From Candidatus Thermoplasmatota archaeon (GTDB lineage Archaea > Thermoplasmatota > Thermoplasmata > UBA10834), in the NCBI GenBank assembly GCA_018814355.1, contig JAHIZT010000113.1, positions 1 to 43,549 of the forward strand: a stretch of DNA of 43,549 nucleotides, in the 5' to 3' direction. The translations under genes were made by a program, and so were the position numbers. Shown here piece after piece: positions 4,840 through 42,617 of this stretch. How positions within the stretch are numbered: the first letter of the stretch is position 1; the number at the start of each line of letters is the position of its first letter. The notes under the pieces were generated by a model. The model made no database searches. It saw only the letters and a list, made by a program, of their open reading frames with translations, and was not told the origin of the DNA.

Positions 4840-5088
4840 GGGGCCAGTAGTCCCACTGCAGCGGATATCGAGGATGCTCGCCTTGGACCGTAGCAATGTG
4901 TCGCAATCGGAGGGTTCATAATGATTTCCCAGAAATCGAAATTTATACTGCGTTAATTAATTTAATTCGGCCGAAATAAATACGAAAAACCCCCCTGCCG
5001 ACCAAGAAGCTCGGATTCCAAGAAATCATTATATATGCGAAGTGTCTACACGGCCTGCTAACGCAGCCTAGGGTATCCACGCCGCCCA
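4840..5088. promoter_or_regulatory. AT-rich region with tRNA-Lys promoter, inverted repeat and palindrome
   Basis: This 249-base gap has no credible ORF. It holds a TATA box ATTATATATG at 5029-5038, about 50 bases before the tRNA, and another TATA-like TTTATACT near 4942-4949. An 11-base inverted repeat pairs 4918-4928 (ATAATGATTTC) with 5022-5032 (GAAATCATTAT). A perfect palindrome, TTCGGCCGAA, lies at 4966-4975. The repeat places the same element in both orientations, so it may be a duplicated promoter or regulator site. No further TATA box was found between the tRNA and rpoH, so this region may also drive the RNA polymerase operon. Confidence 0.45.
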
Positions 5089-5109
5089 GGGCCCGTAGCT
5101 CAGCTAGGT

Positions 5110-5149
5110 AGGAATCTCATGCATTTTCGGTGTATTAGACTCCCTAGAA
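5110..5149 (+). other. tRNA-Lys intron 1, position 20/21 (D loop), 40 nt
   Basis: The 5' exon CTAG (5104-5107) pairs with intron CTAG (5144-5147) to form a four-base-pair central helix. The bulges are GT|A (5108-5110) and AA|A (5148-5150), with cleavage after the second base of each. An inner intron helix pairs GGA-A-TC (5111-5116) with GA-C-TCC (5138-5143), with one mismatch. Splicing joins ...CTAGGT to AGAGC, restoring a normal D loop. On the exon side two bases (AG) face the 3' bulge, so the motif is slightly relaxed. Confidence 0.88.
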
Positions 5150-5188
5150 AGAGCATCTGCCTTTTAAGCAGGTGGCCCGGGGTTCGAA

Positions 5189-5218
5189 TGACTATGCCTA
5201 ACAGACTAGTCTCGGAAA
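5189..5218 (+). other. tRNA-Lys intron 2, position 59/60 (T loop), 30 nt
   Basis: Exon TTCG (5183-5186) pairs with intron CGGA (5213-5216) in a four-base-pair central helix with one G-T wobble. The two bulges are AA|T (5187-5189) and AA|T (5217-5219). An inner helix pairs GACTA (5190-5194) with TAGTC (5207-5211). Cleavage after the second base of each bulge joins TTCGAA to TCCCCG and recreates T loop and T stem exactly. One unpaired T (5212) makes the motif slightly irregular. Confidence 0.88.
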
Positions 5219-5232
5219 TCCCCGCGGGCCCG

Positions 5233-16109: not shown

Positions 16110-19100
16110 TTGGCCGAGGCAAGGGAGATCCCTGCTAGGTCCTTTCTGTCCATCAAGAGGGGGGACGGGAGGCCGAGCGAACTAGGGAAGTGGTTCAGGG
16201 CGAATTGGGCTGCCCTGGCTATGCTCTTCTTCATCTTCACTCTTGCGTTGTTCATGCGTTCGTACTTCGGCTACGAGATGGCCTCCGACAACGGATACAT
16301 CGTGTCTGGTGGCTCCGACTCATACTACTGGCAGCGCATCATCGACTACTCTGCAGATACAGGCAAGCAACTGTATTGGGACCCGCTGATTAACTACCCG
16401 GACGGGATCAGGAACCCGCGTCCACCTCTGTTCAGCATGTCCGTCGTCGTACCCGCCGTGATCGCCCAGGACGCCTTCGCGTCGCTTCACGATTCTCTGG
16501 GCTGGACATTCATGTGGTCCACTGCATTCTGGGGCGCACTGACCGTCATCCCGACCTTCTTCGTCGGAAAAGAGGTCTTTGGCAGAAGGGCGGGGCTGGT
16601 CGCGGCCTTCTTCCTGGCGATCATGCCGAGCCATGTCCAGCGGAGCGTGTTGTCAAATGCGGACCATGACTCGTTCATTCTGTTCTTCATAGTCCTCACG
16701 TTCTATTTCCTGCTCAAGGCCGTCAGTGTCCAAGACCATAGGAAATGGGTCGAGAATTGGAGGAGCCTGAGAAGCATAAAGGGTGGTCTCAAAGACTACT
16801 TCAGGAACAGTAAGACCGCAGTGCTGTATGCCTTCATCGCGGGAACGTCCTTCGGCGCGGTCATCATGGCCTGGGTCGGATTCGGCTATGCTGCGGTCCT
16901 CATCCTGGCGTACTATATCATCCAGGTTTTCCTGAACAAGTTCAAGAACACCGATTCATTGAGCGTCACGCTCATCGTTATGATCGCAATGGGTTTCGGA
17001 TACCTGATATCCTTCCCGGTGTACTATGAGCAGACCCTGATTCAAGTCAGATTCGATGTCCCTGTTTACCTGTTCCTCGCCTCGATGTTCTTCGGGATGA
17101 TGTTCGTCATCTCGAGAGACTTCCCCTGGACCCTGACACTGCCTGCAATAGTGTCGATTCTGATTGTCGCAGTGCTCGCGATTAACGTTGTCGATCCATC
17201 ACTTGGCCAGGCTATCTTGAGCGGCCAGGGATACTTCGTCAAGAACAAGCTGTACTCCACAATCGCAGAGGCGAAGGCCCCGATGTTCAGCGAGGTCGCC
17301 ATGGGGTTCGGGATGGTCACATTCTTCATGTCTCTGATCGGCCTAATCTGGGCCATCACCAGGCTTCCGAAGCACGCGACTGCGCCGTACATCTTCATAG
17401 TCGTCTGGCTCGGTGCCGCCATATTCATGGCAATCTCCGCTGGCAGATTCATGTTCAACGCGGCACCTGCGTTCGCCATTGCGTCCGCCTGGGTGTTGGT
17501 CGTGATCGTCGATAAGCTCGATTTCAACAGCGTCCGCAAGTCGCTCGTGGGAGCCAGTGGCTCCTACCTGCATGTATTCAGGAAGAGCGTGAAGGTCAGA
17601 CACGTCGTCGGCGCTCTTTTCCTCGCCTTCATGGTCGTCCTGCCCAACGTCTGGTATGGAACCGACGCAGGCATCCCGTCCGAGCGCAAGGCCGCGCTTG
17701 ACAACGAGATATACTCGAGCTTGCCTGATTTCATGAGGCCCGGATCGTACGATCAGGCGAACGGCACTGTATGGTACTTCGGGGCATTCGGCTACTCTCT
17801 CCCGCTGCCGAAGTACTACTTCCCGACCGCATGGGCTTGGTTCGCGGATCGTGATTCCGATATACTGCCGGAGTCCCAGCGGCCTGCATACGTGTCATGG
17901 TGGGACTACGGATTCGAAGCCGTCCAGGCGGGCAAGCACCCGACTGTGGCAGACAACTTCCAGAACGGTTATCAGATCACAGGTAACATCATAATGTCGC
18001 AGAGCGAGGCCGAGGCAATCGCGTTGTTCGCCTACAGGCTGCTCTCAGCTGGGATCGCTCACGACCCGCTCGTGAAGGACCAGCTCTACGCCCTGATGGA
18101 CAAGTACGATATCGACAAGGACCGGATGAACCAGATCATGTTGGGCTCGGGCAGGCAGCTTGCGGCTGAGATACTGGCGGATCCATTGGTTTATGGCCCG
18201 ATGTCTGAGGATATCAGCGACGCCAACGCGAGGATAGTCACCGCCAGAGTTGAGCTCACGAAGCTCAGCCTCGACGACCTCGTCAGCTTCTACGGCGAGG
18301 TGTGCGATGTCACGGACTGGGAAATAAGATACTTCAGCGTCGACTCAAGAATGTTCCCGCGCTCGGGTCAGGACACGGGCATCTTCTACGCTCCTGCGAA
18401 GCTCTCGGACAGGCGCATCACTAGGGGCTCCACTCCGATTGACTTCTTCGAGATCAAGGCGATCGACATCTACGGTGCGTCATACGCAATCGAGGATGTC
18501 ACCTCTGACATGCAGATAATCGATTACCAGCTGGAATACAAGGACATGTTCTACAAGAGCATGTTCTACAGGGCCATGGTAGGCTACTCTGGCACGGACA
18601 TCGGCCAGACGAACGACGGCATACCTGGGCTATCGGGATCGGCGAGTGATTATACGCCTGCTCCTGGCTGGAACCTGACACACTTCAGGGTGGTCTACAG
18701 GACCGCTTACTACAACCCGCTCACACTCGACAACCCCGACTTTAGAGAGGGCTGGAGGGCCATCAGCTTCGAGGAGGCCGCTGTACTCAAGGAGAAGATC
18801 CAGGCGGGCGAGGCCCAGGGGTATATCGACGATTCCGCGTCGAACTACTACAGTGCTGGTGTGGTCTTCTTGGAATACTACAAGGGTGCCTACCTGAACG
18901 GCACTCTGAAGACAGAGCAGGGCTACCCAGTGGCTGACATCAGCGTGACCATCCAAGACGAGTACGGGATCCCTCACATGGTGACCAAGACGGATGAGAA
19001 CGGCCATTACTCGCTCCTGGCTCCGTTCGGAAATCTCACGCTGACATTCTCGGGCGGCAGCACCAACAATATCGGATTGAAGGGCGCGAACACTATTGCG

Positions 19101-38269: not shown

Positions 38270-39703
38270 TCAGTGCTTCCTGGAGATGCCTTTGAACAAT
38301 TCATCCATCCTTCTAGACTCATCCTTGGAGACGACGGGCGCTCTTGCACCCTTCAGGATGCGCTGAGCCTCATCATTCGCTTTCCTCAACAGATCCCCCC
38401 TCTTTCCATTGTCAGTCTTTCCGGAGAAGACCGCCCCGGGTTTGGTGGTTGAAATGAATTCCGTCTTGAACCGGGCTAGGGAGTGTCTTTTGCCGAGGAA
38501 ATTGCCGTCGAGCCCTGCGTCTCTGATGGTCTCGAATGATATGGCCTGGTCATCAGCGCTGAACTCGCGAGAGAAATCGCGGGCTACATCCCAGACCCAT
38601 GCATCGACTACCAACTGCTCATAGGAGGCTCCTGCTGCCTGATCCACGCCTCCGAATCCGGATCCAAGATCTGAGGGCACAAGCCCCATCATCGACATCG
38701 AGGGCACCCCCTCCTGAACTGATGCAAGCGACAGTGAGCTCGACTCCAAGCCTATCCCTGCGACCATCGTCGGCAGACCGTAGTACCTTCCCATCTGACC
38801 TGCCCCAGTGCGAAGTAGTTGCGCCTCCAGAGCTCCATAATCAATCGAGCCGGTCACCAAATCTCCTGGCACGGAATCGCTGCTGTAGATCCACGGAGCT
38901 CCCTTCTCGGCAGCCTGCGATATGACAAGGCTAGCCAGATTCTCAGCGTTCACTTGAGCAATTGTTCCTGATAGCGTCACGGGCGAAGTGAGGCCCGCGA
39001 CTGATGCGACCATCGCCACAACGGGCACACCGGCTTTTGCGAATTCCACCTGCGCCTCAGCCAACCCGCCCTCGAATGTCAATGGAGATATCGGACACTC
39101 GGTGCCTGAGAATATTGGGTTCTTCTTCAGGTTCTCAGGGCCGTCCGTCAAGATAGATGCAAGGGCTATCATTTCCCGTGCCTCCTCTGCATCCGACGCA
39201 CCCCCCTGGAAATGTTTCCGTGTGTTCTCTAAGCCAGTCTTGAACTCAGAAATGTTCTTGAGTTCCAGCGGTTGGTCCAGCGCACCCACCATGCCCCATG
39301 CGAAGTCCACCTGAGGAAGCGATTCAACAATGACCGTGAAGTTCTGGACATCCTCCAAAGTGGATGGCCTCGTCGCTCCAGTGAGCATTTCCTTGATGTA
39401 TACACCTTCACCGCCGTTGGATACATGGAGCCTGTTGTGATCCGGGATTCTCATGTCGCCTTTGCCATCTCTGGTAGCGAGCAGGATCGATTTCGGGGCG
39501 TGTGCGAGGGCAGATTTCACAAGCTCCTGGGGCACGCGCACCCGTTTCCCATCCTTGGAAAGCATCGAGCCAGAGTCAACAAGCATCTTAGTGACGACGT
39601 CGCTGTGCACGACCACCCCGACTTCCTCCAGAACTCTTATGGAAGTGTCGTGGATTCTTCTGATCTCAGTGCTTGTCAGAAACTCCAATCTGCCCTTGGC
39701 CAT
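38270..39703 (-). CDS. MttB-superfamily methyltransferase, copy 1 (no pyrrolysine codon)
   Basis: The 477-residue protein belongs to the trimethylamine:corrinoid methyltransferase (MttB) superfamily, a TIM-barrel family that moves methyl groups from quaternary or tertiary amines to a corrinoid protein. Matches include ECPISPLTFEGG, INVENL-like QVNAENLASLVISQ, YYGLPTMVAGIGL and GNFLGKRHSLARFKTEF. The frame has no in-frame TAG, so it is of the non-pyrrolysine type, whose characterised members act on glycine betaine or other quaternary amines. ATG 39703 is chosen for its GAGGGATTG ribosome-binding site; the frame upstream to 39850 shows no similarity. It is the more divergent copy. No corrinoid protein gene is present in the window. 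Confidence 0.88.
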   Translation of the reverse strand: MAKGRLEFLTSTEIRRIHDTSIRVLEEVGVVVHSDVVTKMLVDSGSMLSKDGKRVRVPQELVKSALAHAPKSILLATRDGKGDMRIPDHNRLHVSNGGEGVYIKEMLTGATRPSTLEDVQNFTVIVESLPQVDFAWGMVGALDQPLELKNISEFKTGLENTRKHFQGGASDAEEAREMIALASILTDGPENLKKNPIFSGTECPISPLTFEGGLAEAQVEFAKAGVPVVAMVASVAGLTSPVTLSGTIAQVNAENLASLVISQAAEKGAPWIYSSDSVPGDLVTGSIDYGALEAQLLRTGAGQMGRYYGLPTMVAGIGLESSSLSLASVQEGVPSMSMMGLVPSDLGSGFGGVDQAAGASYEQLVVDAWVWDVARDFSREFSADDQAISFETIRDAGLDGNFLGKRHSLARFKTEFISTTKPGAVFSGKTDNGKRGDLLRKANDEAQRILKGARAPVVSKDESRRMDELFKGISRKH

Positions 39704-39880
39704 GGTCAATCCCTCGTTTGCTGTATCGTAGAAGCGGTTCGTGTGAAAGTACTTTTTGTTGTAAGAGGGGTCAGAGGCCGCAGTAGACGTGCGCCTAGGT
39801 CGGTGAGATGATTGAGGGACATTCGGCTGGAGCGTCGGAGCTTGAACCACTCCTATCCGTACAGCTGAAGGCTCGGAGGC
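39704..39880 (-). promoter_or_regulatory. Spacer between the two MttB-like genes
   Basis: The 177 bases hold no convincing ORF. On the minus strand an AT-rich ACAAAAAGTACTTTC lies about 40-55 bases before the copy 1 start and may be a separate promoter; a Shine-Dalgarno GAGGG is close to the ATG. The two methyltransferase genes may therefore be regulated separately. Confidence 0.3.
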
Positions 39881-41308
39881 CTACTTCTCGCGCCCATTCT
39901 TGGCATCCTGGAGAATCTTATCGATGTCCCTTTTCTGCTCCCTCTCGAGTGGGGGCACATCGTGTTCTTTGAGTATTACTGCTACTCGTTCCTTCGCCCT
40001 CGCGCGCATGTCCTTCGCCCCGAGCTTGAGCCAGTTGTCATAGATGTTCCTGTCAGAGAGCACTGGCCTCCAGATATCCTTCTTCGTGTGCTCCAATGTG
40101 TGTCTCGTGCCGATGAACCCGCCTCCCGGACCGATCTTGTCAACCAAGTTCAGGGCGAGGCTCTCGTCATCGACGTCAATCCCCCTCTTGATTCTGAGAA
40201 GGGCGCCCGCGACTTCGTCATCAATGACGAGTTGTTCGACGCTGTATGTGGTAGCAGAGCTGAGGACGGCGGGGCCAAATACAATGTCACTTCCTGCCAG
40301 GACGGGTGGAAGGCCCGTCATCGTCTTTTCGTACATTGCCTGGTCGCCAGGGAGCTTTGCGTCTGTGCTGATGCCGCCGACCAGACAAGGTATCTGATAA
40401 TGGTGGGCTAGCTGGACGGCTGCCACGTTGATCAGAGCTCTCTCGGGCGCTCCCAACGCAAGGATTCCAGTCCTCATGTCCATCACGGAGGCGACTGAGC
40501 CGTAGATGACTGGGCATCCTGGTGCGAACAGCTGGCAAATGGCTATCCCCGCCAAAACCTCCGCATTAATCAGGGCAAGTTCGCCAGCGAGAGTCACTGG
40601 TGCAGTGCCACCGCCCATCGCCATGCTGAGGACGTCGTATGGCATCCCAGCTCTGGCGGATTCGACCATCGCCTCTGTGTTTGCCTTGTCGAATTGGAGC
40701 GGGCTTACCGGACATCCTCCCATCGAAACCACAGGGGATTTCCTGAAAGCATCCTCTCCCCCTGCGATCGTGTGAGCGATTCTGATGAAGTGTTTTGTCA
40801 TTTCGGTTCCCTGGCACTCGTGAGCAACGTGCTTTGTCGTGTTCTCGATGGCCGCGACCGTTTCCTTCAAGAAGTGCAGCTTCCCTTCTGCGTCGTGGGC
40901 TACAACTGTTGGGCCGTAGAACGCGATGTTTTCGAGCGCGTCAGCCACTCTTGCGAATTGGCAGATATCAGCGAGCACAGATTGTCTGACTTTGCCCGTC
41001 TCGTGATCGAGCACCTTTATGCCAGTTGCGGAGTTAGTGAAGTGAGTGGAACCAGACCCTAGCTCGACAGACCGACGATGGTCTCGCGCGGCCAACATGA
41101 ACCTGGAAGGTGCGTTCTCAATCGAATTCGTGATGAGTCTCTCCGGAAGCCTAGCGCGTGACTTTCCAAAATCCACGTCTGCTCCACCGTCTTCTAGCTG
41201 CTTCAAGGACTGTCTTTCGTAGACAGCGACGCCAGTTCTGCCGAGGATTGCCATCGAAGCGTCATGGATTCTCTGGAGATTCTCCTCGTTCAGCACTTCG
41301 AAATGCAA
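39881..41308 (-). CDS. MttB-superfamily methyltransferase, copy 2 (no pyrrolysine codon)
   Basis: The 475-residue protein is a second, clearly different MttB homologue. Diagnostic parts are GGCPVSPLQFDKANTEAMVE, GSVASVMDMRTGILALGAPE, GGISTDAKLPGDQAMYEKTM and GGGFIGTRHTLEHTK, which are close to the classical family pattern. There is no in-frame stop to be read as pyrrolysine. TTG 41308 is the preferred start because GAGGGG lies six bases upstream, giving the usual length; an ATG at 41452 would extend into the divergent gene. It is upstream of copy 1 on the same strand and faces away from the HdrD-like gene. The substrate is unknown. Confidence 0.9.
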   Translation of the reverse strand: MHFEVLNEENLQRIHDASMAILGRTGVAVYERQSLKQLEDGGADVDFGKSRARLPERLITNSIENAPSRFMLAARDHRRSVELGSGSTHFTNSATGIKVLDHETGKVRQSVLADICQFARVADALENIAFYGPTVVAHDAEGKLHFLKETVAAIENTTKHVAHECQGTEMTKHFIRIAHTIAGGEDAFRKSPVVSMGGCPVSPLQFDKANTEAMVESARAGMPYDVLSMAMGGGTAPVTLAGELALINAEVLAGIAICQLFAPGCPVIYGSVASVMDMRTGILALGAPERALINVAAVQLAHHYQIPCLVGGISTDAKLPGDQAMYEKTMTGLPPVLAGSDIVFGPAVLSSATTYSVEQLVIDDEVAGALLRIKRGIDVDDESLALNLVDKIGPGGGFIGTRHTLEHTKKDIWRPVLSDRNIYDNWLKLGAKDMRARAKERVAVILKEHDVPPLEREQKRDIDKILQDAKNGREK

Positions 41309-41450
41309 ATACAGCCCCTCTCTTCTGTCTTGACATATGCGGTCGAGTAAATCTCTCTTGCTGAGTCCGACATATCCAAACGGTAAAATACGGCTCTCCC
41401 AATCACGGTTAGTTTCCTGGAATAGTCGCCAGCAACGGAGTTTGTGCAAC
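41309..41450. promoter_or_regulatory. Divergent promoter region between MttB-like and HdrD-like genes
   Basis: The 142 bases separate two divergent pairs. On the plus strand GGTAAAATACGG (41381-41392) is TATA-like for the HdrD-like gene. On the minus strand GCATATGTC near 41335 lies about 25-30 bases from the MttB copy 2 start. A common regulator would be natural here. Confidence 0.35.
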
Positions 41451-42617
41451 ATGGATCAGGCGCTATCTGAGATGCTCGAGATATCTGAGAAATGCGCGAG
41501 GTGCCGATGCGGATGCTGCAAGGACGAGTGTCCAATGTACTCGGAGATGCTGGAGGAGAGCATATCCCCAAAGGGGAGGAACGTCCTGATCAGAGCGATC
41601 TCCGAAGGGGTCCTCCAGCCAGATGAGCGCGCTGTAAGGATCGCCTACTCATGCCTTCTCTGCAGAAGGGACGAGCTGTCCTGCACTGCTAAACTGAAGA
41701 ACGCCGAGGCGACCGAGACTTTCCGCAAGTACCTTATCGACAAAGGTGTACCGCTACTGCCCGAGCACGACATACTTGCCAAGAGCCTCGAAAACTATGG
41801 AAACCCTTGGCAGGAGCCAAAGACCGCCAGAAGACGCTGGGCGAAGGAATTCGCGAGGAGGAGGCTCGTCCCAGGAAAGACAGACACTCTGTTCTATGTC
41901 GGATGTACGTTCGCGCTCGACAGGACTCTCCAAGAAAGCCCTAAGGCTCTCGCCCGTTTGATGGACCGAGCAGGAGAGAGCTACGGCCTCCTTCTTGAGG
42001 ATGAGGTATGCTGCGGTTCGACAGTGAAACGCATAGGCCACTCGAAGCTGTTCGAAAAGCTCCGGAAGGAAAACGAGAATCGCATCAGGAACACGGGGGT
42101 GAAGCGAATAGTGACCGCCTGCTCAGGATGCTTCAAGACTCTCAAACAGGACTACCCAGGCTTGGCAAAGGACGTGGAGATACTCCATTCCACTGAATAC
42201 CTGGCCAGACTTGTCAAGGATGGAAGGCTGAATTTCAAACGGTCGGATGCAAAGGTCACCTACCATGACCCGTGCCATCTCGGCAGACACGCTGAGGTGT
42301 ACGATGCTCCTAGAGAGCTCCTCAACGCGATTCCCGGTCTGAGGCTGACTGAGATGAAGAACTCGAGGGACCTTTCCCGATGCTGCGGGGGAGGGGCCGG
42401 CGTCAAGACGGCGTATCCAGAGATATCCGGCAAGGCCGCGATCAGAAGGCTCAAGGAAGCCGAGAAGTCGGGTGCAGAAATCCTTGCGACTACTTGCCCC
42501 TTCTGCGTGCAGACCCTGAAGGAGGCGGCGAAGGCCACTGGTTCGGATATCGAAGTCGTCGAGCTCTCGGTGTTGCTCGATCGTCTTTCCGAACACAAGG
42601 AAGTGCACATTGGATGA
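41451..42617 (+). CDS. HdrD/GlcF-like iron-sulfur protein with two CCG domains
   Basis: The 388-residue protein has an N-terminal ferredoxin-like part and two cysteine-rich CCG domains (CCGSTVKR with ACSGCF; CCGGGAG with DPCHLG and TCPFC), the layout of HdrD, GlcF and LutA-type subunits that pass electrons to or from a flavoprotein. The first cluster region is unusually Cys-rich (C15-x2-C18-x-C20-x-CC-x3-CP). The second (C68-LL-C71-RRDELS-C78-T) lacks the third cysteine of the CxxCxxCxxxCP pattern, with Asp74 in its place. ATG 41451 is the start, as upstream residues are unrelated. The stop overlaps the next gene (ATGA). Confidence 0.88.
   Translation: MDQALSEMLEISEKCARCRCGCCKDECPMYSEMLEESISPKGRNVLIRAISEGVLQPDERAVRIAYSCLLCRRDELSCTAKLKNAEATETFRKYLIDKGVPLLPEHDILAKSLENYGNPWQEPKTARRRWAKEFARRRLVPGKTDTLFYVGCTFALDRTLQESPKALARLMDRAGESYGLLLEDEVCCGSTVKRIGHSKLFEKLRKENENRIRNTGVKRIVTACSGCFKTLKQDYPGLAKDVEILHSTEYLARLVKDGRLNFKRSDAKVTYHDPCHLGRHAEVYDAPRELLNAIPGLRLTEMKNSRDLSRCCGGGAGVKTAYPEISGKAAIRRLKEAEKSGAEILATTCPFCVQTLKEAAKATGSDIEVVELSVLLDRLSEHKEVHIG

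Follow-up and report, generated by a model that had tools for sequence, protein, structure and literature searches.

The window, a stretch of 43,549 nucleotides from a Candidatus Thermoplasmatota archaeon, holds a tRNA-Lys(UUU) gene that is interrupted twice, in the D loop and in the T loop. This raises the question of whether the gene serves the organism as its functional tRNA-Lys(UUU) and, if so, which splicing enzyme would remove two introns at noncanonical sites.

Anatomy of the tRNA-Lys(UUU) gene

The gene occupies positions 5089–5232 of the plus strand, as established from the sequence, its fold, ARAGORN, and homologous genes in relatives, and corresponds to a 144-nt pre-tRNA. Exon 1 (5089–5109), which is conserved across Thermoplasmata, comprises the 5' strands of the acceptor and D stems and the D loop up to position 20. 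A 40-nt intron (5110–5149) separates positions 20 and 21. Exon 2 (5150–5188) runs from A21 to A59 and contains the anticodon UUU at 5163–5165; a 30-nt intron (5189–5218) between positions 59 and 60 follows. Exon 3 (5219–5232) supplies U60, the 3' strands of the T and acceptor stems, and the discriminator G73. All of these elements lie on the plus strand. When the exons were joined (74 nt), ARAGORN called a tRNA-Lys(ttt), showing that removal of the introns restores a standard tRNA and bearing out the exon boundaries and 74-nt product proposed in the first-pass annotation. That annotation was also right in finding no 37/38 intron in this gene; many relatives do have one. Neither ARAGORN nor the Rfam tRNA model called a tRNA in the uncut gene at 5089–5232, meaning that tRNA-Lys(UUU) in its intron-bearing form escapes two standard searches.

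The precursor fold beat 200 of 200 dinucleotide shuffles (z = −3.1), and a one-base register shift in the D-arm was preferred when the fold was unconstrained. The gene is located upstream of rpoH-rpoB. Upstream of the gene itself lies a TATA-like element, TTATATAT (5029–5036, plus strand), a putative promoter that has a similar counterpart at a similar distance in relatives. The 5' leader (5040–5088) is strongly conserved within one family of the comparison set, f1, more than a plain spacer would require.

We compared both junctions with the archaeal BHB motif, a 4-bp central helix with two 3-nt boundary bulges, and with its strict form, hBHBh', in which helices adjoin both bulges. Both introns display the central helix and the bulges, the exon-side bulge of the D-loop intron being opened to a 2×3 internal loop. 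The T-loop intron is strict on its exon side, where nothing separates the T stem CGGGG/CCCCG from the central helix UUCG/CGGA (5183–5186 with 5213–5216) and the 3-nt bulges read AA^U and AA^U; on its intron side, a single additional U is left unpaired in the 3' strand of the inner helix. The D-loop intron is strict on its intron side, with the central helix CUAG/CUAG (5104–5107 with 5144–5147), a clean 5' bulge GU^A, and the inner helix GGA.UCU/AGA.UCC. Its exon side is not strict: A14-G15 is unpaired opposite AA^A, and this internal loop is present in 48 of the 48 distinct D introns compared. The earlier description of 4-bp central helices with 3-base bulges therefore stands for the exon side of the T intron and fails for that of the D intron. 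The T intron demands no relaxed specificity of the endonuclease, and the D intron demands tolerance of a one-sided internal loop.

Covariation supported these helices. Each distinct sequence was counted once, and pairing was compared with 2000 shuffles that leave relatedness uncorrected, none of which matched the values observed. Among 48 distinct relatives, the D central helix was 97.4% paired (shuffle mean, 85.9%) and the D inner helix 88.2% (61.4%); among 47 distinct relatives, the T inner helix was 73.4% paired (48.0%). Compensatory C-G, G-C, and A-U pairs occur at a single position of the D central helix. In the T central helix the exon half, UUCG, is invariant, which leaves no scope for covariation.

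Introns across the phylum and in other tRNAs of the genome

The comparison set consisted of RpoB loci from 80 genomes and 100 searched relatives. The same two introns occur in the rpoH-linked tRNA-Lys genes of Thermoplasmata and of other classes of the phylum, some of which carry a third at 37/38; the three kinds are found in several combinations, with all three in one gene at most. In family f1, nearly all recovered tRNA-Lys genes share both introns, and the tRNA-Lys of uncultured members of the genus Methanomassiliicoccus (L040, L044, L049) has the D and T introns as well. A quickly built, unrooted RpoB tree with 75 rows required at least two changes for the D intron, four for the T intron, and three for the 37/38 intron, counts that do not separate gain from loss. 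The intron-free rows of this tree are the group with Ferroplasma and the Aciduliprofundum/DHVE2 group; the tRNA-Lys of family f6 is also free of introns. A D-intron pattern matched 24 of the 293 genomes of the phylum, including families outside the class, with 0 matches in the reversed control, and T-loop intron patterns matched 51 of the 293, with a few matches in the control. One tRNA-Lys (L105:2108–2328) has an unusually long D-loop intron of about 147 nt, an insert with no Rfam family match.

In Thermoplasmata, such tRNA-Lys introns are the rule in most families sampled, and their absence is found mainly in lineages having cultured members. The feature had initially been regarded as atypical for this lineage, a view that these data overturn. 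Judged from the compared sequences, the tRNA-Lys introns are very probably an old inheritance of Thermoplasmata.

Another intact tRNA-Lys(UUU), whose existence the first-pass annotation had left to be checked, was not found in an Rfam scan of the draft genome (97% complete, 135 contigs), although its division into 135 contigs leaves a little room for a further copy beyond the assembly. The only other tRNA-Lys detected by the scan is tRNA-Lys(CUU), which has a canonical intron. The locus is thus the sole apparently functional tRNA-Lys(UUU) and carries two noncanonical BHB introns, which, as had been pointed out, is unusual for Euryarchaeota by published accounts (PMC4090602, PMC4033280).

Within its own genome (G000), tRNA-Lys is not a lone oddity because other tRNAs are interrupted as well. 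tRNA-Arg(UCU) (L155, reverse strand, G000:C80, about 18720–18841) has a 37/38 intron together with a strict T-loop BHB intron and scores weakly under the Rfam tRNA model. tRNA-Thr(CGU) (L020, G000:C53:59207–59307) has a D-loop intron, and tRNA-Leu(UAA) (L149, G000:C50:1074–1180) has a variable-arm insertion forming a hairpin, possibly another noncanonical intron. Several other tRNAs have canonical introns. The tRNA scan of this 97%-complete genome did not find tRNAs for Trp, Thr(UGU), Arg(CCU), and Ser(GCU), which may be interrupted too or lost to assembly gaps. A generic T-loop intron pattern gave 58 matches against 37 in the reversed control, so that most are due to chance; it did recover tRNA-Arg(UCU). 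T-arm-like fragments without an upstream cloverleaf were seen at L188 and L211 (G000:C15 and C71) and may have been left by integration events at tRNA genes.

Splicing enzymes and competing explanations

The first-pass annotation held that the two introns imply an (αβ)2 or ε-type endonuclease. The genome search does not support this. EndA is encoded at a single locus (G000:C88). One ORF there holds two PF01974 copies, and its fused product measures about 351 aa when counted from the likely start; the search at E up to 10 returned no second EndA gene, barring an 11-bit fragment. NCBIfam and PDB alignments span the length of two-unit enzymes, the solved enzymes closest to it are those of M. kandleri and A. 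fulgidus, and the catalytic Tyr/His/Lys triad region aligns in the C-terminal half. At the crenarchaeal-loop position, EndA has 28 residues, as does M. jannaschii, compared with 38 in A. pernix α; a specificity loop of crenarchaeal or ARMAN type is absent from the aligned protein. A C-terminal position is occupied by Arg, where A. pernix and broad-specificity enzymes have Trp.

Set against the known classes, EndA has neither the separate α and β genes nor the crenarchaeal specificity loop with Lys that define (αβ)2 enzymes. It also departs from the αN-α-βC order and ARMAN loop of ε2 enzymes, having two full units of which the catalytic one is C-terminal. It does have what distinguishes α'2 enzymes, namely fused structural and catalytic units with the triad region in the C-terminal half. 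By its sequence, EndA looks like an α'2-type enzyme bearing features of narrow-specificity members. Most intron-bearing relatives likewise have one ORF with two EndA hits. The genome has one gene for RtcB.

We consider it very probable that the locus is the organism's functional tRNA-Lys(UUU). Its own promoter would give rise to the 144-nt precursor, the single fused α'2-type EndA would cut the D-loop intron at GU^A/AA^A and the T-loop intron at AA^U/AA^U, and the three exons would be ligated by RtcB. The introns would be old in Thermoplasmata, some lineages being without one or both of them and others having an added 37/38 intron.

The introns could be real and yet depend on a relaxed (αβ)2 or ε endonuclease whose gene lies elsewhere in the genome: noncanonical tRNA introns accompany such enzymes in other archaea (PMC4090602, PMC4033280) and the D-loop junction departs from the strict BHB. 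The fused two-domain protein is the sole EndA gene recovered, however, the same two-hit single ORF recurs in most intron-bearing relatives, and the 10-residue crenarchaeal loop is absent at the aligned position, which makes a second endonuclease very unlikely.

The other alternatives concern the function of the locus. In a draft genome that is 97% complete and split into 135 contigs, one might suspect a pseudogene or an insertion-broken tRNA, with another gene supplying tRNA-Lys(UUU). Within family f1, however, exons are 99.5% identical whereas the introns drift (83% identity for D introns and 92% for T introns), and compensatory changes keep the splice structure. We rejected the pseudogene reading on the strength of the covariation and because the draft genome yielded no further Lys(UUU) gene, and regard it as scarcely credible. 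The 92% identity of T introns inside f1 might instead be taken to mean that the inserts are structured RNA cargo, such as guide RNAs, retained for a function of their own with splicing secondary. This is extremely improbable, as intron length and loop sequence differ freely from family to family and the inserts of four long-intron loci have no Rfam match.

For a functional tRNA-Lys(UUU) spliced by this EndA, the enzyme would have to tolerate the D-loop junction. A conserved PRGGxPxKTPSKxW-like loop in its structural N-terminal half is full-length in all D-intron families sampled. Families f4, f14, and f18 lack this loop and f6 has it at full length with an altered sequence; the tRNA-Lys of these four families is without a D intron, and one f7 genome has no D intron yet keeps the loop, in a comparison that involves few independent events and a trait defined after looking. 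We tentatively suggest, as a rather doubtful possibility, that Thermoplasmata represent an independent route to broad tRNA splicing, in which an α'2 EndA with neither the crenarchaeal nor the ARMAN loop accepts a relaxed D-loop junction, perhaps via this N-terminal-half loop.

Relation to known splicing systems

According to published work, α'2 enzymes cleave only the canonical BHB, and relaxed motifs poorly if at all (PMC4033280, PMC6379350), and the loop-bearing Korarchaeum is the sole α2 archaeon with noncanonical introns (PMC4033280). A contrary account has a 3-nt bulge plus an internal loop cleaved by homodimers (PMC8707768). The published α'2 limits fit the T intron and not obviously the D intron.

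Thermoproteales and other Crenarchaeota also have up to three BHB introns per tRNA, D-loop and T-loop sites included, but their (αβ)2 endonucleases with the crenarchaeal loop differ from the fused loop-less α' enzyme found here. Methanopyrus kandleri and Methanothermobacter thermautotrophicus are euryarchaea that have multiple-intron tRNAs (PMC4033280); unlike in those species, the introns described here occupy fixed positions of one tRNA throughout a phylum, and the EndA subunits α and β, separate in M. kandleri (PMC6379350), are fused. Korarchaeum cryptofilum similarly combines a homodimeric-type α2 enzyme with noncanonical tRNA introns, but a specificity loop is reported for its EndA (PMC4033280), and the present EndA has no such loop. 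The α'2 enzymes of Archaeoglobus fulgidus and Thermoplasma acidophilum share the two fused units and the lack of a crenarchaeal or ARMAN loop (A. fulgidus aligned). They are listed with narrow specificity at 305 and 289 aa, respectively (PMC6379350), compared with about 351 aa here, and the A. fulgidus protein is without the extra structural-half loop.

As read from the sequences, the tRNA-Lys belongs with good support to a known type, and its predicted coupling with a loop-less α'2 enzyme contradicts the textbook rule. Reviews associate multiple or noncanonical introns with endonucleases that are heteromeric or carry a loop, and in their account euryarchaeal tRNAs have single, canonical introns; in contrast, lineages across this phylum combine up to three introns per tRNA with a fused loop-less enzyme. 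The rule of enzyme-intron coevolution can thus be tested directly on EndA purified from relatives rich in introns and from relatives free of them. Some of these tRNA-Lys introns may already be present in tRNA databases, and the literature covered consists of open-licence papers.

Elsewhere in the window, two adjacent genes on the minus strand (38270–39850 and 39881–41452) resemble the trimethylamine methyltransferase (MttB) family, an assignment made by inspection. The second contains an Rfam PYLIS_3 match (40270–40369) and has a Ser codon (AGC) at the site of the family's amber pyrrolysine codon, and because of this replacement it looks like a pyrrolysine-free relative.
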